Of a DNA stretch of 64,000 nt, positions 4,104-57,480 are shown piece after piece. This DNA is from Candidatus Bathyarchaeota archaeon. Its GTDB lineage: Archaea > Thermoproteota > Bathyarchaeia > Bathyarchaeales > Bathycorpusculaceae. The DNA lies in assembly GCA_013388905.1 (NCBI GenBank), contig JACAEI010000031.1, positions 120,106-184,105 on the forward strand, written 5' to 3'. Positions within the stretch are counted from its first letter, which is position 1. Each line of letters starts with the position of its first letter. The notes under the pieces were generated by a model, which was not told where the DNA came from, ran no database searches, and saw only the letters and a list, made by a program, of their open reading frames with translations. Position numbers and translations under genes: made by a program.

Positions 4104-5342
4104 TTGGTAAGGCTTAAAGGATTTCAAAAATTAACATCGGTTGATGAAGCCCAACGTGTCTTCTTCAGCAAAATACACATAAAAAAATTGAAGACTACCT
4201 GTGTTCCCTTACATTCTGCTTTGAACCGAATTCTAGCAGAAGATGTCATAGCAAGAGAAGATTTGCCAAAATTTAACAGGTCCGCCGTTGATGGATATGC
4301 CGTTAGAGCCGAAGACACGTTTAAAGCATCACAGTTCAAGCCTAAAATCATTCAAATAATAGATAAAGGTGAGATAGGCGAAAAACAAGCAAAGAAAGTG
4401 TGGACTGGGAATCCCATTCCAAAGGGTGCTAACGCTGTAATCATGCTTGAAAATGCTAAGTCTGTTGGCGATCAAATTGAGGTATGGGTTTCACTAACAC
4501 CAGGAGAGAACGTTTCTCAGAAGGGTGAAGACATTCGAAAGGACGAAGTTGCTGTAGAAGCTGGAACCCGCTTAAAACCACATCATTTAGGATTAATAGC
4601 CGCTTTAGGAATCAGCAAAATCCAAGTGTTTGAAAAACCAAAAATTGCTATTTTAGCCACTGGAAACGAACTCGTAGAACTTGGTAGTAAACCACGAGAA
4701 GACCAAGTGTTTGAGGTTAATAAGCTCGTTATCTCTGCTTTATGCCATGAGCTAATCGCTGAGCCGTTAGATTTAGGAATTGCAGAAGACGACCTTAACG
4801 AAATATGCAGAAAATTGAGAACAGGCTTAGAAATGGCTGATATGGTGATTACTACGGGTGGAACAAGCGTAGGAGTCTCAGATCTAGTTCCAGAAGCTGT
4901 TAACAAAATTGGAAAACCAGGCGTTATAGTTCATGGCGTAGCAATGCGCCCAGCCATGCCCACAGCCCTTGGAGTGGCAAATGAAAAGCCGATAATTATT
5001 CTGTCAGGTAACCCTGTTGCTGCAATGTTTGGGTTTGAAGTCTTTGCCAGACCATTAATATGCAAACTGTTGGGACTTAAACACGAAGAAACACGCCCCA
5101 TAATTAAGGCAAAAATATCCAAGAAAGTCACATCAGCTCTTGGAAGAAAAACCTTCGTTCGCGTTCATGTTTTCCAAAGCAATGGAGAGTTTTTTGCAGA
5201 ACCCGTCAGCGCTCGAGGCTCCGGCATAATTTCTACCATGACGAGGGCTAATGGTTATGTTGTTGTTCCTGAAAATCGTGAAGGCTTAGCAGAAGGCGAA
5301 TCTGTTTCTGTGCGCCTCTTTGATACTGTTGAAACGAGTTGA
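4104..5342 (+). CDS. moeA: Molybdopterin molybdenumtransferase MoeA (first copy)
   Basis: 412 residues from a TTG start. MoeA inserts molybdate or tungstate into adenylylated molybdopterin in the cytoplasm. Visible motifs are RSAVDGYAV at 59-67 (domain I), GNPIPKGANAVIML near 112, the MoCF_BD site TTGGTSVGVSD near 250, and SGNPVAAMFG near 305. The C-terminal domain IV ends the chain. It overlaps the second moeA by 4 bp (TTGA), so the two are translationally coupled. Archaea often carry two MoeA proteins, possibly for different metals; which does what here cannot be told from sequence. Confidence 0.93.
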   Translation: MVRLKGFQKLTSVDEAQRVFFSKIHIKKLKTTCVPLHSALNRILAEDVIAREDLPKFNRSAVDGYAVRAEDTFKASQFKPKIIQIIDKGEIGEKQAKKVWTGNPIPKGANAVIMLENAKSVGDQIEVWVSLTPGENVSQKGEDIRKDEVAVEAGTRLKPHHLGLIAALGISKIQVFEKPKIAILATGNELVELGSKPREDQVFEVNKLVISALCHELIAEPLDLGIAEDDLNEICRKLRTGLEMADMVITTGGTSVGVSDLVPEAVNKIGKPGVIVHGVAMRPAMPTALGVANEKPIIILSGNPVAAMFGFEVFARPLICKLLGLKHEETRPIIKAKISKKVTSALGRKTFVRVHVFQSNGEFFAEPVSARGSGIISTMTRANGYVVVPENREGLAEGESVSVRLFDTVETS

Positions 5343-6583
5343 TAGTAGTGTTTAGGAAACTGCTAACCTTAGATGAGGCACAACAAGCCATAAACAAACA
5401 TTCTACTCCTAAGCCTTTAGGTGTTGAAAAAATTCCACTTTTAAAAGCCCACAATCGTGTTCTTGCAGAGGATATAATCGCGCTTATGGACATTCCACCT
5501 TTCAGCCGTTCAACAGTTGATGGTTACGCGGTAAAGGCAGAAGACACATACGGCGCAGAAGAAAACAAGCCAATAAAACTGACGATTTGCGGGTCTGCTA
5601 ATGTGGGCGAACCACCAAAAATAGTTGTCAAACGAGGCGAAGCAGCGGAAATAGTCACTGGTGCACCAATGCCGGAAGGCGCAGATGCGGTTGTGATGAT
5701 TGAATACACGGAGCGAAAAGACGATGCGCTTTATGTTTATAGGGCTATAGCTAAAGATGGCAATGTTATGAAGGCGGGGTCGGACATAAAGAAGGGTGAA
5801 AAAATTTTAAAAGCTGGACAATTACTAGGGTCAAGTGAAATTGGAGTTTTAGCTGCTTTAGGCTTAGCAAAAGCGGCAGTCTATGTTGTTCCACGTGTGG
5901 CTGTTCTTTCAACAGGTGCTGAAGTAACCGAACCTGGCAAGAAACTGCCTCAAGGAAAAATCTACGATATAAATGCATACAGCCTTAGCGGGGCAGTGCG
6001 CGAAAGCGGTGCAGAACCAATTTATCTAGGCGTAGTTCCAGACGAAGCCTCTGAACTGCGAAAAACGTTAAAGCACGCGTTAGAATCTGCAGATATAGTT
6101 ATAACTTCAGGTGGAGTTTCTGTAGGCCCAAAGGATTTGTTGCCGCAAACGTTGGATGCGCTTGGTAAGCCCGGCGTTATTGTTTGTGGAATTGCGATTA
6201 AACCAGGAAAACCGACAACAGTTGCGGTTATAGATGGAAAGATGGTTTTTTCTCTTCCCGGTCACCCGACATCTGCTTTATTGATTTTTCATTTGCTTGT
6301 GCGTCCGATATTGCAAAGGATGGCTGGTTTGAAGGAGAAGGAAGTGTTCGAGGTTAAGGCATTCGCTGCCTTGAGGATGTTTCCAGCTAAGGGAAGACGC
6401 ACATTCGTCATGGTCAAATTAAAACGAGACAAAACAAATCGATTGTTAGCAGAGCCAGTTCAAGAAGGGCTTTCTGGAGCCATAACAACACTTGCAAAGG
6501 CTGACGGGTTTGTGGAAATACCTGAAAACCAACAATTTATCGACGCAGGAGAAGAGGTTACAGTTCACCTGTTAAAGAAGTAG
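5339..6583 (+). CDS. moeA: Molybdopterin molybdenumtransferase MoeA (second copy)
   Basis: 414 residues from a TTG start inside the TTGA overlap with the upstream moeA. It is a diverged paralogue of its neighbour: RSTVDGYAV at 57-65, [16 protein letters not shown] near 115, [13 protein letters not shown] near 258 and LPGHPTSAL near 308. The domain set (I-IV) is complete. Differences at the molybdopterin-binding loop (GHP here against GNP in the first copy) could bear on metal choice, but that is inference. moaE lies 55 kb away in the same window. Confidence 0.93.
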
Positions 6584-31030: not shown

Positions 31031-32725
31031 CTATTTTAGCATAGGCATTTTAACGCCTTTCTGCTTCGCTATTTTCTGTGCTTTTTCATATCCAGCGTCT
31101 GCATGGCGGACTATGGCTGTGCCCGAATCTGTTGTTAACACTGTTATTATGCGTTTCTCTGCTTCTTTTGTGCCGTCTGCGACTAAGCACATACCTGCGT
31201 GAATGCTGTAGCCTATGCCAACGCCTCCGCCATGATGCACACTCACCCAAGTAGCTCCGCCAACCGCGTTAATCAAAGCGTTGAGAATAGGCCAATCAGC
31301 CACTGCGTCGCTTCCGTCCTTCATGGCTTCCGTTTCGCGATTAGGTGATGCGACGCTTCCGCCGTCTAAGTGGTCTCGTCCAATCCACACTGGACCTTTA
31401 AGTTTCTTGTCGGCAACCATGTCATTTATGATTTTTCCAAATCGAGCTCTTTCACCAAAGCCGAGCCAACAAACCCTTGCAGGCAAACCTTGAAACTTTA
31501 CTTGTTCTTTGGCTTTTCTTATCCAGCGACACAATTCTTTGTCGTAGGCGAATTTTTTCAAAATCACATCATCAAGCGTGTAAATGTCTTCTTCACTGCC
31601 AATAAGCGAAGTCCACCTGAAAGGCCCTCTGCCCTCACAGAACATAGACCTAATGTAACGCTGAACAAATCCAGGATAGGCAAAAGCATTCTTGAAACCA
31701 GCATTATAGGCTTGCTGGCGCAAGTTATTGCCATAATCAAAAGTCACAGCGCCTTTACGCATCATCTTTACCATTGTTTCAACCTGCACGCGCATACTTT
31801 CACAAGCAGCGTGCATATACTTTTGTGGGTCGTTCTTTCTCAACTCGTCTGCCTCTTCTTTAGAAAAACCAGCTGGATAATATCCATTTAACGGGTCATG
31901 TGCAGAAGTCTGGTCGGTCAGAACATCTGGGATAACGCCTTTTCGCAAAAGTTCTGGATGAACCTCGGCGGCGTTGCCTAACAAGCCAATACTACGAGGC
32001 TTACCGTCTCTTTTAGCTTCTGAAGCTAGTTTTACTGCTTCATCTAAATCGTCGGTCCACATCTCCAGATATCCATGCTTAAGTCTCCGCTCGATAGCCC
32101 ACTTGTCAATCTCCACGACTAATGCGACGCCCTCATTCATCGTAATAGCCAAAGGCTGAGCACCACCCATCTCTCCCAAGCCAGCAGTTAAAACAAGTTT
32201 TCCACGCAAACAACCTTTAAAGTGCTCCTTAGCCACAGCAGCAAGCGTTTCATAAGTGCCTTGCAGAATTCCTTGCGTGCCGATGTAAGCCCATGAACCA
32301 GCAGTCATCTGACCAAACATGATTAAGCCCTTCTGCTCCAACTCGTAGAAATAGTCCCAAGTAGCCCACTTAGGCACAAGTATGGCGTTAACAATTAAGG
32401 CTCGTGGCGCCCATTCATTTGTCTTAAAAACAGCAATAGGCTTACCGCTTTGAATCAGTATAGTTTCGTCAGGGTCAAGTTTAGTTAGAGTTTCAACAAT
32501 ACGCTCAAAACATTCCCAGTTCCGCGCGGCTTTACCTGTTCCACCATAAACGATGAGTTTTTCTGGGTCTTTAGCCACTTCTGGGTCAACAACGTTAAAA
32601 AGCATGCGCAGAATGCCTTCAATCTGCCAATTCTTACAATGCAATTCAGGACCAGTTAAGCATCGAATAGGCTTTTTAATTTTCAGCAAGCTAGTGTTCA
32701 CCATAAATCCAGAATATAGAAACAT
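31031..32725 (-). CDS. hutU: Urocanate hydratase
   Basis: 564 residues, full length. It hydrates urocanate to imidazolonepropionate, the second step of histidine degradation, using tightly bound NAD. The NAD-binding loop is [12 protein letters not shown] near 188, and the active-site Cys lies in [12 protein letters not shown] near 379, the usual FCxGxGPFRW motif. [19 protein letters not shown] near 495 is also family-typical. A TATA-like CTAATAAATC about 30 bp upstream supports ATG 32725. hutI and ftcD lie next in line, separated by a small convergent membrane gene. hutH is not in the window. Confidence 0.95.
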
Positions 32726-32803
32726 GTTATAATCCTTTACCGTCTACATCAGATTTATTAGGAAGCAACTCTCATATGGCTAGGTAAAAAAAGGAATAAA
32801 CAC

Positions 32804-33061
32804 ATGAAAGGAGAAGGAGCAATAGTATTCGTCATAGCCTTCATAGTCTTTCTAGCAGTAACCTTTGCTTATCCAGAATTACCTTTAGGCAGCACAATTA
32901 GCGGCGCCATGGGCATAAACTCTGACGTTCAATGGAGCGGGTTCGCAGTGAAAACATTGTTGACAGCAATTTTTAACGGAGTAATCTACGGCGTAATAAT
33001 ATGGCTAATCTTCACTTTTGCAAGAAGATCCATGAAACCAAAAACGCAGAGTAGTTCTTAG
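32804..33061 (+). CDS. Small two-helix membrane protein
   Basis: 85 residues, ATG with an AAAGGA site 8 bp upstream. One helix sits at 6-25 and another at 47-70, with a short external segment (ELPLGSTISGAMGINSDVQW) between them and a basic C-terminus. Its end overlaps the convergent hutI stop by 4 bp. It interrupts the histidine-degradation genes on the other strand; whether it relates to them, for example as an uptake helper, is unknown. Confidence 0.6.
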   Translation: MKGEGAIVFVIAFIVFLAVTFAYPELPLGSTISGAMGINSDVQWSGFAVKTLLTAIFNGVIYGVIIWLIFTFARRSMKPKTQSSS

Positions 33062-34383
33062 TCTGGTTCGCGTATGAACACAGTTTCGCCTTGCTTTTCT
33101 CTATCAACCACCAATCTCCCATTTTTGATGACCTTATCTACTAGGTTCACGCCAAAACGGTATCCCAGAAACTTGTGGTTGGGCACATCTAATACGACAA
33201 CATCTGCTTTTTTACCCGCTTCTAAACTACCAATTTCTTTTGCTTTGTCTACAGCGTGAGCAGCGTTTATAGTAGTTGCAGTTATAGCCTCCGCAGGCGT
33301 CAACCGCATAAAGTGACAGGCGAAAGCAATGACTAGTTGCTGATTCTCAATCCAACAGCTAGGATTAAAGTCTGTGCCCAATGCTATTGGAACGCCAAAA
33401 TCAATCATTTTTCTAGCGTCGGCATAGCGACCTCCCATTAGACTGAAAGAGGCAGCAGGGAGCAGAATAGCAATTACGCCCTTAGTAGCCATGGCTTTAA
33501 TACCTTCGTCAGAAGAAAAAAGCAGATGCTCAGCAGAGGTGGCACCTATTTCTGCCGCAAGTTCTGCACCGCCCAACTGACTTATTTCATCCGCGTGAAT
33601 TTTGGGTTTTAAACCGTAATTTTTGCCAGCAACCAGAATGCGTCTAGTTTGTTCCAGACTGAAGACGCCTTTCTCGCAGAAAACATCACAATACTCAGCA
33701 AGACCTTTCTCAGTCGCCTTAGGAATCATATCTTCAACAACTAGATTAACATAATCTGTCGGGTTGCTTTGAAACTCCAGTGGAATAGCATGGGCACCCA
33801 AGAAAGTGGGAACAACATCTACAGCGTGTAACTGGTCTAAACGCTTCATGACCTCTAGAATCTTTAGTTCATCTCTAGTTGTTAAGCCATAGCCACTTTT
33901 GGCTTCAGCAGTAGTTGTTCCATGCTCCAACATAACATCTAGTCTTTTGAGACTCAAGTCCACAAGTTTTTCGAAACTTGCCTTTCTGGTTTCTTTAACA
34001 GTTTTCAATATGCCGCCGCCAGAGCTGAGAATCACCATGTAATAAGCGCCTTCAACACGCATCTGAAATTCGTCTTCTCGTGAACCAGCAAAAATAAGAT
34101 GCGTATGAGGATCAACAAACCCTGGCAAAACAATTTTGCCGTTGGTGCTTATCACGTTCTCAGCTCTATACGCTTTTGCAATATCAGTAGATTTCCCGAC
34201 TGCAACAATTCTGCCCTCTTTAATGGCTAGGCCACCGTTACGTATTGTTCCAAGTTCCCGCATTTGCTTGCCCACACGCGGTTTCTGATTGTCACCTGCC
34301 AAAGAAACAAGCTCGTCAGCGTTCAAGATGAGTATATCCACTTTTTCTCTTGCTCTTGACTTGCCAGTTTTACTCAAAGACAT
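33058..34383 (-). CDS. hutI: Imidazolonepropionase
   Basis: 441 residues. It opens the imidazolone ring to give N-formimino-glutamate. As a metal-dependent amidohydrolase it carries the HxH motif in FVDPHTHLIFAGSR near 90, the substrate loop AKSGYGLTT near 160, His in LGAHAIP near 193, HADEISQLGG near 262 and ALGTDFNPS near 336 with the catalytic Asp. All ligands appear intact. It overlaps ftcD by 14 bp, so the two are coupled. Confidence 0.94.
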   Translation of the reverse strand: MSLSKTGKSRAREKVDILILNADELVSLAGDNQKPRVGKQMRELGTIRNGGLAIKEGRIVAVGKSTDIAKAYRAENVISTNGKIVLPGFVDPHTHLIFAGSREDEFQMRVEGAYYMVILSSGGGILKTVKETRKASFEKLVDLSLKRLDVMLEHGTTTAEAKSGYGLTTRDELKILEVMKRLDQLHAVDVVPTFLGAHAIPLEFQSNPTDYVNLVVEDMIPKATEKGLAEYCDVFCEKGVFSLEQTRRILVAGKNYGLKPKIHADEISQLGGAELAAEIGATSAEHLLFSSDEGIKAMATKGVIAILLPAASFSLMGGRYADARKMIDFGVPIALGTDFNPSCWIENQQLVIAFACHFMRLTPAEAITATTINAAHAVDKAKEIGSLEAGKKADVVVLDVPNHKFLGYRFGVNLVDKVIKNGRLVVDREKQGETVFIREPD

Positions 34384-50723: not shown

Positions 50724-51281
50724 CTAGCTTTTTAATAGATTCTTGGCGTATTCGTAACCTTTTTCAAAAGCATTTAGATTCAATTCTTCAGTGCCTCTAG
50801 GTATATTCGCTTTAATCGCCTCTGTCAAAGCATTTTTGTCCAGCAAGCCCGTAACAGCTACAAAGGCACCTAGCATAACAATGTTAGCAACTATTTTTCT
50901 CTGCATCCCTTCAGCAATCTGCGTAGCAGGCACACGAAAAACATTAACATTCTTTAAATCCTTCTCGTGTGGAATCATATCAGGGTCCATGATTATTGTT
51001 CCACCTTGTTTTACATTTTCTGCATATTCATTGTAGGCGTGTTGCGACATAACAATCAATATGTCGGGTTCCACTACTTTTGGGAAATCTATTTCCTCTT
51101 CTGATATTACAACCTCTGATTTGCATGCTCCGCCCCTCGATTCTGGACCATATGATTGTGTTTGAACAGCATTTTTCTGAGCATAGAGGCATGCTGCTGC
51201 AGCAGTGATTATTCCAGACTTGATTATTCCTTGTCCGCCAAAACCTGCAAATCTAATCTCGATTCGCATAATGCCTACCAT
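50724..51281 (-). CDS. korC: 2-oxoacid:ferredoxin oxidoreductase, gamma subunit
   Basis: 185 residues. EIRFAGFGGQGIIKSGIITAAAA (about 6-28) is the family opening, and YGPESRGGACKSEVVIS near 44 and QHAYNEY near 76 are conserved in the gamma (CoA-site) subunits. It overlaps korB by 7 bp and is the last of six co-oriented genes. The order delta-alpha-beta-gamma is that of methanogen korDABC (2-oxoglutarate), but the substrate is not provable from sequence. Confidence 0.88.
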   Translation of the reverse strand: MVGIMRIEIRFAGFGGQGIIKSGIITAAAACLYAQKNAVQTQSYGPESRGGACKSEVVISEEEIDFPKVVEPDILIVMSQHAYNEYAENVKQGGTIIMDPDMIPHEKDLKNVNVFRVPATQIAEGMQRKIVANIVMLGAFVAVTGLLDKNALTEAIKANIPRGTEELNLNAFEKGYEYAKNLLKS

Positions 51282-52114
51282 CCAACTTTTCTCTCGTTTA
51301 TCTGCGATATCTTTTCATGAAGAAATTTCTCGTAACTAACCTTTTCGATGTTTACGAACTCGCCTACAACAAGTTTTTCTGGCGTGATTTCCGCCTTAGA
51401 TGGGTCAGAAAAGTTTTCTACAACCGAGGCACGTTTAAACCAATCCATCATTTCAAGCCCTGTTCGCATTTTGTTGCGCCGGCCAAAAATTTCTGGACAT
51501 GGTGAAACCACTTCGATGAAGCAGAATCCTTCTTTTTGCAGCATCCTCTTAATAGATTGCGTCAATCTTCTCACGTGCAGAGTTGTCCACCTAGCAACAT
51601 ATGTTGCGCCAGAAGCAGCAGCCAAGTGAACCAAGTTGAATGGATGTTCAATATTTCCGTAAGGAGTCGTGGTTGTTGAAGCTTCAAGAGGGGTTGTTGG
51701 GCCTTGCTGTCCACCAGTCATTCCATAGTTGAAGTTATTTGCACAGATTACCTTTATGCCCATGTTTCTTCGAGCAGCATGGATGAAGTGGTTTCCTCCT
51801 ATAGCGAATAGGTCACCATCTCCGCTGATTACTACGACATTTAATTCAGGGTTAGCAAGTTTGACTCCTGTTGCAAAGGCTAATGCGCGTCCATGTGTCG
51901 TGTGGAATGAGTCTGCGTTTGTGTATCCGGCTGAACGCCCAATACAACCGATGCCAGACACGACCACCAGTTTGTCTAAATCCATTTCTAATTCATCTAC
52001 CGCATGAACAAAGCAGTTGAGAATAATGCCATTGCCGCAACCAGTACACCATATATGCGGTATCATTGCTTCTCGCAGATACTTTGAAAGCGGATGCATG
52101 ATTTCTTGAACCAT
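51275..52114 (-). CDS. korB: 2-oxoacid:ferredoxin oxidoreductase, beta (TPP-binding) subunit
   Basis: 279 residues. The thiamine-diphosphate motif runs GDGDLFAIGGNHFIHAARRNMGIKVICANNFNYGMTGGQQGPTTP (about 98-142), with the GDG and NN metal-binding pair. CTGCGNGI near 19 supplies two Cys of the beta-subunit Fe-S region. FIEVVSPCPE near 198 is also typical. It shares a base with korA upstream and overlaps korC downstream, so all are translationally linked. The enzyme oxidatively decarboxylates a 2-oxoacid to its CoA ester and reduces ferredoxin. Confidence 0.9.
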   Translation of the reverse strand: MVQEIMHPLSKYLREAMIPHIWCTGCGNGIILNCFVHAVDELEMDLDKLVVVSGIGCIGRSAGYTNADSFHTTHGRALAFATGVKLANPELNVVVISGDGDLFAIGGNHFIHAARRNMGIKVICANNFNYGMTGGQQGPTTPLEASTTTTPYGNIEHPFNLVHLAAASGATYVARWTTLHVRRLTQSIKRMLQKEGFCFIEVVSPCPEIFGRRNKMRTGLEMMDWFKRASVVENFSDPSKAEITPEKLVVGEFVNIEKVSYEKFLHEKISQINERKVGW

Positions 52115-53265
52115 TAACAGTTCCTCCTTATAGCTTCAAAAATCTCCATTGGCGTATGCGGTTCTTCACCTAACTTTGAAAGGAAAACCACAAGTGTGCT
52201 TTTCGCCGCGCGTTCTACCTCTCGCACCATTTGGCCACAATTCATTTCTGGAACAATTATCTTTTTTGCATGTTCTTCAATTTTCGCTATTTGATTTTGT
52301 GGAAAAGGCCAAAGCGTTATCGTGCGAAGAAGACCTGCCTTTATTCCTTTTTCTCTTGCTTTTTTCACAGCACTTAGGGCAGCTCTTGCAACAATTCCAT
52401 AGGCAATGACCACAATGTCAGCGTCATCTAGCATGATTTCTTCAACCCTGATTATTTTGTCCGTATTTCTCCGTATTTTGTCGCAAAGCCGTTTCACTAA
52501 ACGCTCCTGAACTTCTGAGCTTGATGTTTTGGGATATCCATACTCATCATGCGTCAAACCAGTAGCGTGAAAACGGTATCCCTCGCCAAAACAAGCCATA
52601 GGCGGAACCAAATCATAGTCAGGCATAAAGGGCATATATTTCTCTGGTGAAACATTCGGTTTTTTACGATTAACTATCCTAATTTTTTCAGCGGAAGGAA
52701 TTACCACTTTCTCCCACATGTGCGCAACAATTTCGTCTGCCAACAATAATGTGGGCACACGATAGGTTTCAGCTAAGTTAAAGGCTTCAACGGTTAAATC
52801 AAACATTTCTTGAACAGACGAAGGTGCTAACGCTATAATCTCGTAGTCACCATGTGAACCCCACCTAGCTTGCATAACATCTTGTTGTCCAGGCATTGTT
52901 GGTTGTCCAGTGCTGGGTCCACCACGCATAATGTCCACAATCACGCACGGCGTCTCAGTCATAACTGCTAATCCAATGTTTTCTTGCATTAGGCTGAAGC
53001 CAGGTCCAGAAGTAGCTGTCATAGCCTTTAAACCAGCGTAAGAAGCTCCTATCACAGCCGCTATAGAGGCAATTTCGTCTTCCATTTGGATGTAGATTCT
53101 GCCAATCTCAGGCATCCTTTCTGACAAGTGCTCAGCAATTTCAGTTGCCGGTGTAATCGGGTATCCAGCAAAGAAGCTGCAGCCAGCGGCTATAGCTCCT
53201 TCTGCACATGCAATGTCGCCATTCATGAAGTGAGTACCTGTAAGCAACGCTTCTTTTTTAGCCAT
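52114..53265 (-). CDS. korA: 2-oxoacid:ferredoxin oxidoreductase, alpha subunit
   Basis: 383 residues from ATG 53265 (MAKKEALLTGTHFMNGDIACAEGA); the open frame reaches 53340 but the extra residues are unlike the family. FAGYPITPATEIAEHLSERMP near 34 and EDEIASIAAVIGASYAGLKAMTATSGPGFSLMQENIGLA (about 63-101) are the pyrimidine-binding signature of the alpha chain. The C-terminal third includes DDADIVVIAYGIVARAALSAVKKAREKGIKAGLLR. It overlaps korD by 8 bp and korB by 1 bp. Confidence 0.9.
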   Translation of the reverse strand: MAKKEALLTGTHFMNGDIACAEGAIAAGCSFFAGYPITPATEIAEHLSERMPEIGRIYIQMEDEIASIAAVIGASYAGLKAMTATSGPGFSLMQENIGLAVMTETPCVIVDIMRGGPSTGQPTMPGQQDVMQARWGSHGDYEIIALAPSSVQEMFDLTVEAFNLAETYRVPTLLLADEIVAHMWEKVVIPSAEKIRIVNRKKPNVSPEKYMPFMPDYDLVPPMACFGEGYRFHATGLTHDEYGYPKTSSSEVQERLVKRLCDKIRRNTDKIIRVEEIMLDDADIVVIAYGIVARAALSAVKKAREKGIKAGLLRTITLWPFPQNQIAKIEEHAKKIIVPEMNCGQMVREVERAAKSTLVVFLSKLGEEPHTPMEIFEAIRRNC

Positions 53266-53545
53266 TCTTAACATCCTCCTTAGATGGTTTTTCAATAATG
53301 AAAATCGCGAAATCTGGACAAACAGCAGTGCAAAAACCACACGCTAAACATTTGCTTTCATCTACAATTTTCGGAGGATGAACCCCTCTTGCATTTATTT
53401 CCTGCGATTCCTCCAGAACCTTTTGCGGACAGAATCGTATACAAAAGCCGCAGCCTTTGCACTGGTCTTTGATAAGTTGGATTTTTGCCTTTGGGAATGT
53501 CGCTTTTCCCATGTCAAGCGGGGCATGTCTAATTCTTTCCGGCAT
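53258..53545 (-). CDS. korD: 2-oxoacid:ferredoxin oxidoreductase, delta (2x[4Fe-4S]) subunit
   Basis: 95 residues with two ferredoxin motifs: CKGCGFCIRFCP at about 29-40 and CLACGFCTAVCP at about 65-76. It carries electrons from the TPP site to external acceptors. It starts 4 bp after hdrA, which physically links the 2-oxoacid enzyme to the Hdr-type proteins. The 3' end overlaps korA by 8 bp. Confidence 0.9.
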   Translation of the reverse strand: MPERIRHAPLDMGKATFPKAKIQLIKDQCKGCGFCIRFCPQKVLEESQEINARGVHPPKIVDESKCLACGFCTAVCPDFAIFIIEKPSKEDVKNG

Positions 53546-53549
53546 GTTT

Positions 53550-55997
53550 TTAATCTCCTCCTAAAGCCTTTTCAAAAACTTTCTTTGCATTGTTTATTTC
53601 TTCTGGTGACACTTTTTCTACTAACCTGTTCATTTCACGGATTTTCGAAGCAAATCTTTCGCCTTCTGCTGCTGAAGCCCATAAGAGCTGCAATCTTTCC
53701 TTATCCAGTCCCTGCTGCTCCATTTTCTTCCATAAGCGCTCGACACGTTTCTGTGTTTGATAATTGGCGTTTATGTAATGGCAGTCTCCAGGATGACAAC
53801 CTGCTACCAGAACTGCTGCTGCCCCTCTTGCAAATGCTCGTTCTACGAATTTAGGCGCCACGCGTCCAGAACACATAGTCCTGATTATACGCACGCTTGG
53901 CGGGTACTGCATTCGGCTAACTCCAGCAAAGTCTGCGCCCGCATAAGCACACCAGTTACAACAGAAAGCAACAATCTTCTTATCCGCATCACTCTCTGTT
54001 ACAGCGTCAATCTGCGAGATGATTTGCTCATCAGTAAAGTGGTCTTGGGTTAAAGCATCAAAAGGACATTCTGCAGCGCATGTTCCACATCCGCCGCAAG
54101 CCGCCTTTACAAGCTCAACTCGCTTCAACTCCTTGTTTAAAACTATGGCATTGTAAGGACAAACCTTCGCGCATAGTCCACAGACTTTGCATCTTTCTGG
54201 ATAAAAAATAGGCGTAATAGCTTCTACAGTTACTTTGCCTTTAGCCATCAAAATACCCGCACGGGCTGCTGCAGCGCTCGCTTGTGTTACGCTGTCTTTT
54301 ATGTCTTTAGGCGATTCGGCGCAGCCAGCAAAGAATATTCCGCCTGTCGCAGCGTCTACTGGTCTAAGTTTTGGATGTGCTTCCATGAAGAAACCGTCTT
54401 GTGTTCGCGAAAGCGTTAAGAGGCGCTGGATTGGCTCACTGTCTTTTCTTGGCTCTAGTCCAACAGAGAGGATTGCCATGTCAACATTTACCTTATAGAG
54501 CTCCTTTTGCAGTGTGTTTTCTCCAACGAGCCACAGATTATGCGTTTTTCTATCTTCTACAATTTCTGCTGGAAGCCCACGTATGAACAGAACCCCTTCT
54601 TTTCTTGCCCTTTTATAAAGGTCTTCAAAGCCTTTTCCATATGCACGAATATCCACATAGAAGACATGGATTTCAGTTTCAGGCCAATGCTCCTTAATTA
54701 GTAGGCTATCCTTAATTGTATTCATACAGCAAACATTGCTGCAGTATAGTCTTCCACTTTTGTCAGAGCGAGAACCAACGCACTGAATAAATGCTACACG
54801 CCGGGGAATCTCCAAATCACTAGGCCTTATAAGGTGTCCTCCAGAGGGTCCTCCTGCATTAATTAGCCTTTCAAACTCGAGTGAGGTGATTACGTTTAGG
54901 TATTTGCCATATCCATAATTTTGCAGGCTTGAGGGGTCGAATACGTCTGCGCCTATTGCCACAATTATTGTACCTACATCAATTTCTACTGTTTCTGGCT
55001 TCATTTCGAAATCTATAGCTTGGCGCTCGCAAGCTTTCATGCATTTGTCACAGACTGTTACGCCGTCTTTGTTTAGGCACAAGTTCATGTCAATGATGTA
55101 TGTAGATGGAACAGCTTGAGCGAAAGGCGTGTAAATGGCATGTCTTATAGCTAAGCCTGCATCAAACTTGTTTGGAGCTATGACTGGGCAGACTTTGGAG
55201 CATTCTCCACAAGCTGAACAGTCGTTCTTAACGAAACGTGGTCTTTTCAAAATTTTAACATGGAAATTTCCAATATACCCTTTCACATCAGTAACTTCGC
55301 TGTTAGCCAATAACTCAATATTTGGATGATGCCCAACATCAGACATTTTAGGAGCAAGAATACAGATGGAACAATCCATCGTTGGAAATGTCTTATCTAT
55401 TCGTGCCATCATCCCGCCTATACTTGGCTCTTTCTCCACCAGATACACTTTATAGCCAGTGTCAGCCAAGTCCAAGGCTGCTTGGATTCCAGCGACGCCA
55501 CCACCTATGACCAATGCTTTTCTGATTATGGGCACTTCAATTTCTTTGGCAGATTGAAGTCTAGCGGCTTTTGCTACAGCCATTTTCACAAGGTCTTTAG
55601 CCTTTTCGGTGGCTGACTGCCTATCATATAGGTGAACCCAACTGCAATGTTCGCGGATGTTTGCCATTTCAAAAAGATATTTGTTTAATCCAGCGTCTTC
55701 ACAGGTTTTTCTGAATGTGGGTTCATGGAGACGCGGTGAGCACGAAGCCACTACCACGCGGTTAAGCTTATGCTCTTTAATGTCTTTTTTTATCTGCTCT
55801 TGCCCTTGGTCTGAGCACGTGTAGCGGTTATCTTGAGCCCAAACAACATGCGGAAGAGTTGCCGCAAATTTTGCCACTTCTCCACAGTCTACTGAACCGG
55901 CAATGTTTAAACCACAGTGGCAAACATAAACCCCTATACGAATTTCTCCGTCGTCTTCTCTTGGATTTGTTTTTTCTTTTTCTTCAGCGCCCATCAA
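53550..55997 (-). CDS. hdrA: Heterodisulfide reductase subunit A fused to an MvhD-like domain
   Basis: 815 residues. The N-terminal HdrA part (GVYVCHCGLNIAG near 23) leads to an FAD site VIGGGVAGIQAA near 168. Fe-S motifs are CSACGECSKVCP near 258, CDKCMKACER near 312, CKVCGLCAKVCP near 605 and CGGCGTCAAECP near 640. The last 135 residues (AFCCNWCAYAGADFAG near 686 and AGCHPGDCHY near 750) are MvhD-like, the [2Fe-2S] adaptor that receives electrons from hydrogenase or formate dehydrogenase. HdrA is the flavin-bifurcating subunit in methanogens. No HdrB is present in the operon. Confidence 0.92.
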   Translation of the reverse strand: MMGAEEKEKTNPREDDGEIRIGVYVCHCGLNIAGSVDCGEVAKFAATLPHVVWAQDNRYTCSDQGQEQIKKDIKEHKLNRVVVASCSPRLHEPTFRKTCEDAGLNKYLFEMANIREHCSWVHLYDRQSATEKAKDLVKMAVAKAARLQSAKEIEVPIIRKALVIGGGVAGIQAALDLADTGYKVYLVEKEPSIGGMMARIDKTFPTMDCSICILAPKMSDVGHHPNIELLANSEVTDVKGYIGNFHVKILKRPRFVKNDCSACGECSKVCPVIAPNKFDAGLAIRHAIYTPFAQAVPSTYIIDMNLCLNKDGVTVCDKCMKACERQAIDFEMKPETVEIDVGTIIVAIGADVFDPSSLQNYGYGKYLNVITSLEFERLINAGGPSGGHLIRPSDLEIPRRVAFIQCVGSRSDKSGRLYCSNVCCMNTIKDSLLIKEHWPETEIHVFYVDIRAYGKGFEDLYKRARKEGVLFIRGLPAEIVEDRKTHNLWLVGENTLQKELYKVNVDMAILSVGLEPRKDSEPIQRLLTLSRTQDGFFMEAHPKLRPVDAATGGIFFAGCAESPKDIKDSVTQASAAAARAGILMAKGKVTVEAITPIFYPERCKVCGLCAKVCPYNAIVLNKELKRVELVKAACGGCGTCAAECPFDALTQDHFTDEQIISQIDAVTESDADKKIVAFCCNWCAYAGADFAGVSRMQYPPSVRIIRTMCSGRVAPKFVERAFARGAAAVLVAGCHPGDCHYINANYQTQKRVERLWKKMEQQGLDKERLQLLWASAAEGERFASKIREMNRLVEKVSPEEINNAKKVFEKALGGD

Positions 55998-55998
55998 A

Positions 55999-57435
55999 TT
56001 ACCTCGCTAAAGATTTCACGTAATTCTCAATTGATTCTGCTGCTCGTTTTCCAGCCCGAATGGCTTCAATGATGGTTGCTGGTCCAGTCACAGCGTCACC
56101 ACCAGCAAAAATGCCTTCAACACTTGTCTCCATGGTTATAGGATTAACCCAAACTGTGTTGTCTTCGTTTAGCTCAATTTCCTTTGGCAAAAAACCTAGG
56201 TCGGGGATTTCCCCTATAGCCAGAATTACCATGTCTGTTTCACGCGTGAATTCGGACCCTTCTATTGGAGTTGGTTTTCTTCTTCCCGATTCGTCTGGTT
56301 CGCCTAATTGAATACGGACACATTCAACAGCCGAAACCTTGCCATTCTTTCCTAAAATCTTCTTTGGGGCTACTAAGAATTCGATTTTCACGCCTTCATT
56401 TTCGGCTTCTTTAACTTCCCATGGAATGGCTGGCATCTCCTCCTTAGACCTGCGATATAAGATCGTTACTTTGTCAGCATTCAATCTCAAAGCGGTTTTT
56501 GCCGTGTCCATGGCAACGTTGCCGCCGCCAATCACAACTACATCTTTTCCAACTTTGACTTTTTCTTTATAGTTTGCATTCCAAAGAAATTCAATAGCGT
56601 GAATTACACCTTCTAAATCTCCACCTTCAATCTTGAATGCTTGACTTTTATTAGCGCCTGTTCCAATAAAGATGGCTCTATAGTTTCCTTTCCTCAAATC
56701 GTCAAAATTCACATCTTCCCCAACTTTTACCCCAGTTTTAATTTCCACACCCAAATCTTCTATGAACTGAATTTCTTTCGCTAAAACCCACTTTGGTAAG
56801 CGGTATTCCGGTATGCACTTGCGTAGCATTCCACCAGGTTCAGAAAACGCTTCAAATATTGTAATTTTATGCCCTTTTCTAGCAAGTTCAGAAGCAACGG
56901 TAAGTCCGGCAGGTCCAGAACCTATAACAGCAATTTTTTCTCCAGAACTTTTTACCGTTTTTTTCTTTTTCAATTTTTTTAAGTGTTCGATCCGAATGTG
57001 TTCAATCATATCCAAGATTTTCTTTATCTCTAATCCAGCGCGTTCTGGATGAAAACAAACCAGTGTCGTTACAATTGATAAGGGAATATTATCCACAATC
57101 TTTTCAAAGGCTATTTCCAGTGGCTGCGTAAACGCGTTTTTTACGGCTGCTGTGCGCATATAAAGAAAAATTTCTGGCAATTTTAAACCTTGAGGACAGC
57201 GTTTATAACAACGATAACACCAAGCGCAAAGCCAAGGCTCGTAAGAAGCCAAAACCGCGTCCGGATTCAGAAAAATTTTCTCCAAAAGATTCCTTGGATT
57301 GTAATCTTTTCCCAGCAAATCTGCTATCGAACAGCTAGCCGTGCAAATCCCACATTCGAAGCAGTGCTCGAGTTTTTCACCATCTAACAGCTTTCTAATG
57401 TCTTCTTTAGGGACTAGTGCCTTTGAGGCTTCCAC
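55999..57435 (-). CDS. HdrC-like iron-sulfur domain fused to GltD/NfnB-like NAD(P)H flavoprotein
   Basis: 478 residues from GTG 57435, chosen because a TATA box lies 35-45 bp upstream; the open frame runs to 57540. Residues 20-90 hold two Cys clusters (CFECGICTASC and CAWCYRCYKRCP), the HdrC pattern for two [4Fe-4S]. Residues 165-478 form a GltD/NfnB-like oxidoreductase: GSGPAGLTVASEL near 173, a second GGGNVAMDTAKTALRL near 310, and GGDAVTGPATIIEAIRAGKRAA near 443. This can couple NAD(P)H to Fe-S carriers. It is the first gene of the hdr-kor operon. Confidence 0.88.
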   Translation of the reverse strand: MEASKALVPKEDIRKLLDGEKLEHCFECGICTASCSIADLLGKDYNPRNLLEKIFLNPDAVLASYEPWLCAWCYRCYKRCPQGLKLPEIFLYMRTAAVKNAFTQPLEIAFEKIVDNIPLSIVTTLVCFHPERAGLEIKKILDMIEHIRIEHLKKLKKKKTVKSSGEKIAVIGSGPAGLTVASELARKGHKITIFEAFSEPGGMLRKCIPEYRLPKWVLAKEIQFIEDLGVEIKTGVKVGEDVNFDDLRKGNYRAIFIGTGANKSQAFKIEGGDLEGVIHAIEFLWNANYKEKVKVGKDVVVIGGGNVAMDTAKTALRLNADKVTILYRRSKEEMPAIPWEVKEAENEGVKIEFLVAPKKILGKNGKVSAVECVRIQLGEPDESGRRKPTPIEGSEFTRETDMVILAIGEIPDLGFLPKEIELNEDNTVWVNPITMETSVEGIFAGGDAVTGPATIIEAIRAGKRAAESIENYVKSLAR

Positions 57436-57469
57436 GTTTTGGCGCCCTCTGTAGTTTTGGTGGTTTGCA

Positions 57470-57480
57470 AAGATATAAAG
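57470..57480 (-). promoter_or_regulatory. TATA box of the hdr-kor operon
   Basis: On the minus strand CTTTATATCTT (57480 to 57470) gives a transcription start near 57450, about 15 bases before GTG 57435. All six following genes lie within 4 bp of or overlapping each other, so this single promoter probably serves the whole run to 50724. Confidence 0.55.

Follow-up and report, generated by a model that had tools for sequence, protein, structure and literature searches.

A six-gene operon that joins an HdrA-MvhD fusion to an NfnB/GltD-type flavoprotein and a four-subunit 2-oxoacid oxidoreductase (KorABCD) was identified in a 64,000-nucleotide stretch of a Candidatus Bathyarchaeota archaeon genome (assembly GCA_013388905.1, contig JACAEI010000031.1, positions 120,106 to 184,105; hereafter the window). 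The six minus-strand genes run from 57435 to 50724 in the order hdrC-gltD, hdrA-mvhD, korD, korA, korB, korC. An earlier note, made from the sequence alone, had described them as one hdr-kor operon, and domain and profile searches confirmed the identity of every gene. With moderate confidence, the six products are proposed to form one cytoplasmic complex in which the HdrA-MvhD hub would join KorABCD to NADP(H) on the HdrC-like/NfnB-type subunit. The complex, its electron route, its direction and its substrate are what we infer from the sequences of the operon products.

Components of the operon

The genes are separated, from 5' to 3', by 4, 4, -8, -1 and 5 nt. They lie on contig C24 of a genome bin of 1.5 Mb that is 93% complete. 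A TATA-like element, TTTATATC (57472..57479, minus strand), recognised by sequence match only, stands 36 nt 5' of the GTG start of hdrC-gltD.

The second gene, hdrA-mvhD (53550..55994, minus strand), encodes an 814-aa fusion of the HdrA2 type (type Ia), which scored 1268 bits against a cut-off of 1100 bits for NF040770 and matched the structures 5odc_A and 5odc_D, in agreement with its earlier description as HdrA fused to MvhD. Residues 672-800 (53595..53981, minus strand) form the MvhD (FlpD) domain (PF02662, 3.6e-49). In methanogen HdrA, E356 and K409 are key bifurcation residues (PMC12054007; this and the other papers are cited from the parts of their text that were available). Alignment to 5odc_A places them at E375 (codon 54870..54872, minus strand) and K428 (codon 54711..54713, minus strand) of the operon protein. 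The earlier note had named loss of the bifurcating-flavin residues as grounds for abandoning its interpretation; the pair was instead kept in all 40 HdrA-MvhD proteins that reached residue 790, the window's own included. Across the same 40 proteins 34 of the 36 cysteines were invariant, among them all six of the MvhD domain, and the other two, C37 and C558, were kept in 38/40 and 39/40.

HdrB, which the earlier note had reported missing, was indeed not found with the operon. A profile search detected no HdrB/CCG domain on contig C24, and the idea that a neighbouring gene supplies HdrB in trans was rejected on this ground; CCG proteins are encoded on contigs C16, C18 and C1. When one HdrB query was run against the fetched stretches of 34 kor-linked relatives, no clear match was obtained apart from a weak one (24%) near the operon of G182, at least 2 kb being available upstream in 29/34 and downstream in 27/34. 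A separation of hdr from kor with HdrB beside hdrA, the other outcome considered damaging at the outset, was not seen in these relatives, where hdr and kor stay together.

The first gene, hdrC-gltD (55999..57435, minus strand), starts with GTG and encodes 478 aa. Residues ~20-110 (57106..57378, minus strand) match TIGR03290 and PDB HdrC chains (E 5e-14) and carry the pattern CX2CX2CX3C twice (C25, C28, C31, C35; C70, C73, C76, C80). Residues 160-478 (56002..56958, minus strand) form a GltD/NfnB-like domain for flavin adenine dinucleotide (FAD) and NAD(P)H with the motifs GSGPAG, GGGNVA and YRR. The proposal of a fusion of HdrC with GltD stands as far as the HdrC-type iron-sulfur domain is concerned, and is corrected in that NfnB/GltD chains match nearly the full length. 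The product has the NfnB chain fold, its fold matches being of the NfnB/GltD type; no HdrC structure appeared among the whole-chain fold matches listed, a list filled by the longer NfnB-type match. By sequence, the iron-sulfur domain is nevertheless kin to HdrC. In an alignment of 47 hdrC-gltD proteins beginning by residue 30 and reaching at least residue 465 (G235, G154, G198 and G063 were left out), all eight HdrC-type cysteines were kept in every protein, GGGxxA in 46/47 and YRR in 45/47. We take GGGxxA with YRR to be the pattern of NADPH-binding GltD/NfnB chains; the NAD(P)H site proposed earlier thus carries NADP(H)-type motifs (GGGNxA and YRR), YRR presumably denoting NADP. The motif at the nucleotide site is scrambled in the G215 protein, perhaps through a sequencing error.

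All four subunits of the 2-oxoacid oxidoreductase family follow on the minus strand. Profile matches identified korD (53258..53545; ferredoxin-like delta subunit, 95 aa), and profile and structure-sequence matches identified korA (52114..53265; 2-oxoacid:acceptor oxidoreductase alpha subunit) and korB (51275..52114; beta subunit with a thiamine pyrophosphate domain); korC, the gamma subunit, spans 50724..51269 with a possible alternative ATG at 51281. KorA and KorC passed generic 2-oxoacid model cut-offs. The nearest models for KorB (268 bits, cut-off 364) and KorD (69 bits, cut-off 125) were 2-oxoglutarate models, both matched below cut-off. The genome also encodes a SucCD-type ligase pair, and both glutamate-yielding routes noted previously in the window, hutU/hutI and pxpABC, were found. 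On the strength of the nearest KorB/KorD models, the SucCD-type pair and the glutamate that HutU/HutI/PxpABC would yield, 2-oxoglutarate is the best guess for the Kor substrate. The histidine utilisation genes hutU and hutI lie at 31031-34383, with matches above the model cut-offs. Two further Kor-type enzymes are encoded in the genome: C1 carries another KorABC set, and C44 an enzyme of two subunits. In a KorB tree the other beta subunits of the genome had very long branches that joined at unresolved forks, and a distinct operon-Kor group was not resolved.

Conservation of the operon in Bathyarchaeia

The hdrC-gltD protein was searched against 256 Bathyarchaeia genomes, and the six genes were mapped at the resulting loci by tblastn. 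Loci of 48 genomes were examined, 44 with a separate-gene match that starts no later than residue 25 and ends no earlier than 465, and four with partial matches (G235, G154, G198, G063). In 35/256 genomes, the window's included, kor stands directly 3' of hdrA-mvhD. The search for the same six-gene order in archaeal genomes suggested by the earlier note thus recovered it: 28 of the 35 carry all six genes uncut on one contig, and in 7/35 the set is cut by contig ends. The contigs of G145, G146 and G063 end too early to show kor, and G235, where the first part of hdrC-gltD is missing, has korD and then another kor set that reads the other way. In nine of the 256 genomes hdrC-gltD occurs without kor next to it, as do second copies in G183, G180 and G060.

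A search of 398 genomes drawn from the phylum that scored two candidates per genome listed no HdrA-MvhD match above 55% identity outside Bathyarchaeia, the identity of operon-type proteins being ~70% or more. On one contig labelled Njordarchaeum guaymaensis (L045), hdrA-mvhD-korDABC is present together with the end of hdrC-gltD, all 76-83% identical to the window; this contig points to misbinning or transfer, since its KorB groups with Bathyarchaeia. The divergent neighbour of the operon is often a diaminopentanoate-dehydrogenase-like gene, followed by the 5-oxoprolinase genes pxpABC. Elsewhere in the window, a tandem pair of moeA-type molybdopterin genes occupies 4104-6583.

Exchange of partner enzymes

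Where kor is not the neighbour, other low-potential enzymes adjoin the hdrC-gltD/hdrA-mvhD pair. In G217 the hub genes lie in opposite directions and adjoin a polyferredoxin, an aldehyde ferredoxin oxidoreductase (AOR) and a Fer4_11 ferredoxin, and G219 shows the same AOR-linked arrangement up to its contig end. An AOR gene also lies near the second hdrC-gltD copy of G060, whose hdrA neighbour is no more than a fragment. The G061 copy is flanked on one side by polyferredoxin and Fer4_11 genes, and on the other hdrA runs off the contig; no AOR was seen before the contig ends. A polyferredoxin and/or Fer4_11 gene was also among the scanned neighbours in G047, G049, G074 and G077. Size and place were the basis for assigning the two ferredoxin genes of L060 and, with a KorD-like match in addition, the polyferredoxin of G219 (316 aa). 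In G215 the hub lies inside a carbon monoxide dehydrogenase/acetyl-CoA synthase (CODH/ACS) cluster, with Prismane/CODH pieces and a CO_dh subunit upstream, a KorD-like ferredoxin and CdhC downstream, and AOR further on. Several HdrA and MvhD genes accompany the G044 copy and the second copies of G183 and G180, and in G183 an FrhB-type gene is adjacent. HdrA, MvhD and double-HdrA genes are arrayed after hdrC-gltD in L057 (355-9309) and L094 (483-9159), and an FrhB-type gene is next to it in L057.

An unrooted tree was built from 47 hdrC-gltD proteins and the corresponding inserts of three type III HdrA proteins, with contig-end cases as a group of their own, G049 (in which only the upstream Fer4_11 gene was seen) labelled with the polyferredoxin group and G061 with the AOR group. 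The proteins group by partner on this tree: the labels change 6 times, the minimum possible, against a mean of 16.7 for shuffled labels; three of the changes concern kor, and each of the other listed groups changes once. The three type III HdrA proteins (1129, 1165 and 1252 aa) carry a relative of hdrC-gltD at HdrA residues ~300-315, and in the tree the inserts fall together with the AOR-linked proteins (support 95/90). This natural fusion suggests, indirectly, that hdrC-gltD docks on HdrA near the inserted ferredoxin domain. From these gene neighbourhoods, we read the hub pair as a putative partner-swapping junction between a low-potential enzyme and NADP(H), with MvhD as the likely port for a third partner.

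Hydrogenase as a candidate third partner, and F420 as a possible carrier

VhuA-type hydrogenase large subunits were encoded in 24 of 26 operon genomes examined (26 of the 35 kor-linked), and two are present in the host genome. One of these, on contig C18, stands beside MvhD, HdrC and HdrB-type genes and a degraded hdrA. This hdrA (L089 883-1980), which adjoins mvhD-hdrC-hdrB-mvhG-mvhA, has stops and missing parts that reflect decay or an assembly error. The other, on C33 (L158 5905-8183), belongs to a VhuG-VhuA-type (MvhG-MvhA) pair with the NiFe motifs RICGVC and DPCIKC. No match to MvhD or HdrA was found beside this pair in the 13 kb fetched, nor in 6/6 relatives fetched. Orthologs of this MvhA (at least 61% identity) occur in 10/35 operon genomes versus 3/221 others (Fisher test, in which shared ancestry is ignored), or, counted by genus, in 7/25 operon versus 2/83 other genera. 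These observations support docking of the MvhD-less MvhAG on an MvhD domain encoded elsewhere, perhaps that of this operon. The presence in the genome of an MvhAG pair without an adjoining MvhD makes it plausible that MvhD serves as a docking port, as suggested earlier. The same pair as an obligatory partner was rejected, its MvhA ortholog being present in only 10/35 operon genomes.

CofD was not found in the host genome (93% complete), and F420 is therefore unlikely there. F420 as a general carrier was rejected, the host being without CofD and only half of the 26 operon genomes having it.

Proposed electron route

In the proposed complex HdrA-MvhD is the predicted flavin-based electron-splitting hub. 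KorABC would oxidise a 2-oxoacid, likely 2-oxoglutarate, and low-potential electrons would pass through KorD to a ferredoxin domain of HdrA. The HdrC-like domain would occupy the HdrC dock on HdrA and lead to the FAD/NADP(H) site in HdrB's stead, and the MvhD domain would serve as a third port, whose likeliest user is a hydrogenase (MvhAG) where the genome has one. The potentials are near -500 mV for 2-oxoacids, -414 mV for H2 and -320 mV for NADP. In the fermentative direction, 2-oxoacid and NADPH electrons might be confurcated to H2, or 2-oxoacid electrons passed to NADP+; in reverse, the complex could drive reductive carboxylation. With an H2 partner the energetics would resemble those of the confurcating HydABC hydrogenase, and a complex lacking one would function as a 2-oxoacid:NADP+ oxidoreductase.

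A bolder version, which we hold only tentatively and think doubtful, is that an interchangeable junction plugs directly into Kor, AOR or CODH/ACS, docks the MvhD-less [NiFe] hydrogenase and confurcates 2-oxoacid and NADPH electrons to H2. If true, this would give Bathyarchaeia a counterpart of the confurcating HydABC hydrogenase that works without ferredoxin, and would account for their redox balance.

Alternative explanations

Several observations weigh against a complex of the kind proposed. A shared operon alone does not prove protein contact. The bifurcation pair is also kept in two HdrA paralogues of the same genome, and so marks HdrA rather than this operon. An NfnAB-like pair is encoded on contig C1, so the genome may not depend on the operon for ferredoxin-NADP exchange. 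YRR is lost in two kor-linked proteins, G060a and G065 (L061, L072), which have C-I-E or C-L-E instead, a possible natural switch from NADP to NAD judging by the motif. As to the third port, the C33 MvhA ortholog is missing from 25/35 operon genomes, and no VhuA-type match at E 1e-20 was found in G182 and G060 (78% complete); hydrogen thus cannot be the only partner. An HdrA-MvhD paralogue on C19 could equally dock MvhAG. CofD is present in 13/26 operon genomes examined, and F420 may accordingly take part in operon genomes other than the host's.

The NfnAB-like pair on C1 (L088 4499-6740, 11734-14157) has thioredoxin reductase, TfrB-like and HdrA-family genes nearby, and this redox cluster stands close to the second kor set of the genome.

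The alternative that survives best, possible though we doubt it, is that the genes are merely co-regulated: Kor would reduce free ferredoxin, which we take to be its usual acceptor, and HdrA-MvhD with HdrC-GltD would be a separate soluble ferredoxin:NADP enzyme sharing the transcript. The nine genomes and the second copies in which hdrC-gltD lacks an adjoining kor fit this explanation, whereas two findings speak against it: the AOR-linked (G217) and CODH/ACS-linked (G215) hubs bring ferredoxin-like genes of their own, and the type of partner is stable along the hdrC-gltD tree.

A simple 2-oxoacid:NADP+ oxidoreductase, in which electrons would move energetically downhill, from Kor by way of HdrA to NADP+, without bifurcation and much as in the NADH-linked phenylglyoxylate dehydrogenase, appears unlikely. 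The 2-oxoacid couples presumably lie below NADP+, so that coupling would not be needed, and Pad subunits were among the weaker profile matches of the operon proteins; against this, the retention of E375, K428 and the six MvhD cysteines in 40/40 proteins would be costly for a mere wire. Improbable also is a complex that runs backwards, with NADPH and/or H2 driving reductive acyl-CoA carboxylation, as proposed for the Flx-Hdr-KorABCD of tubeworm symbionts (PMC6315080, PMC11636981). That published precedent and the CODH/ACS-linked hub of G215 speak for it, but the hut and pxp genes of the window suggest amino-acid breakdown and a SucCD-type pair is present, although the direction is not fixed thereby. 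Least probable, and in our view slight, is a disulfide reductase served by an HdrB from another locus of the genome. Contigs C16, C18 and C1 do encode CCG proteins, but in the operon the HdrC-like domain shares its chain with an NAD(P) domain, and the HdrB query gave nothing beyond the weak G182 match in the kor-linked stretches fetched.

Relation to known systems

Neither the archaeal operon, nor its lack of HdrB, nor the exchange of Kor, AOR and CODH/ACS partners was found in searches of an open-access library; an earlier description is possible, as most subscription papers fell outside the search. The available parts of PMC9012536, PMC12054007, PMC6085437, PMC11237513, PMC9723716, PMC5296606, PMC7886697, PMC9534799, PMC8407382, PMC6474303, PMC13328260, PMC5736913, PMC6315080 and PMC11636981 do not describe the operon. 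HdrA-MvhD fusions and HdrA with inserted GltD/NfnB have been published (PMC5296606, PMC12054007, PMC9012536).

For peptide-fermenting Bathyarchaeota, the passage of ferredoxin-level electrons to NAD or H2 was left unexplained in the text available (PMC9534799). According to that study, the step calls for either Rnf or a bifurcating [FeFe] hydrogenase; it detected no hydrogenase of the [FeFe] type, found Rnf to be incomplete (RnfB in 18/19 metagenome-assembled genomes, RnfC in 4, RnfD in 3), and called the role of most hydrogenases unclear. The operon is a candidate for this missing link in Bathyarchaeia, from amino-acid breakdown to NADP+, and the swapping of partners suggests that HdrA may be a general plug for low-potential enzymes outside methanogenesis.

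Type III HdrA, known in Bathyarchaeota too, likewise unites HdrA with an NfnB/GltD domain. It is a single polypeptide, each of the three loci seen has an HdrB match nearby, and its inserts have lost two of the eight HdrC-type cysteines; the operon has two genes, no HdrB, and Kor attached. A GXGXXG motif and a preference for NAD were reported for type III HdrA (PMC12054007). In the inserts of three Bathyarchaeia genomes (L090, L091, L092) the NAD(P) site has GGGNVA together with YRR, and that study may have taken the FAD motif of type III for the NAD(P) site. HdrA2B2C2 of Methanosarcina acetivorans contains the same HdrA-MvhD fusion family (NF040770) and uses F420H2, ferredoxin and CoM-S-S-CoB with HdrB2C2, NAD being no substitute for F420 (PMC5296606); unlike it, the operon is without HdrB and its host genome without CofD.

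The NfnAB and NfnABC/Stn transhydrogenases share the NfnB chain fold with the hdrC-gltD product. Unlike Nfn, the operon, all six genes of which were identified, has no NfnA and carries an HdrC-type iron-sulfur domain; we infer that HdrA takes NfnA's place as partner of the NfnB-type chain. The Geobacter benzoyl-CoA reductase BamB-I differs in its catalytic enzyme and in its extra subunits, presumably assigned to NADH, which are not of the NfnB type. With HdrA/B/C-like subunits, a tungsten enzyme and redox subunits, it is comparable to the AOR-linked relatives (PMC13328260).

The closest published arrangement is Flx-Hdr-KorABCD of tubeworm symbionts and Thioflavicoccus mobilis, in which korABCD lies between hdrA and hdrBC with flxABCD and a direct complex was proposed (PMC6315080, PMC11636981). 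Since this bacterial cluster has been published, the operon is a variation on an already known kind. Both cluster a four-subunit 2-oxoacid oxidoreductase, theirs for 2-oxoglutarate, with hdrA. In the bacterial cluster, which belongs to the reductive tricarboxylic acid cycle and includes tfrAB and aclAB, NADH enters through FlxABCD and HdrBC is present, whereas the Bathyarchaeia operon dispenses with HdrB and Flx, fuses HdrA to MvhD and has an NfnB-type pyridine-nucleotide subunit.

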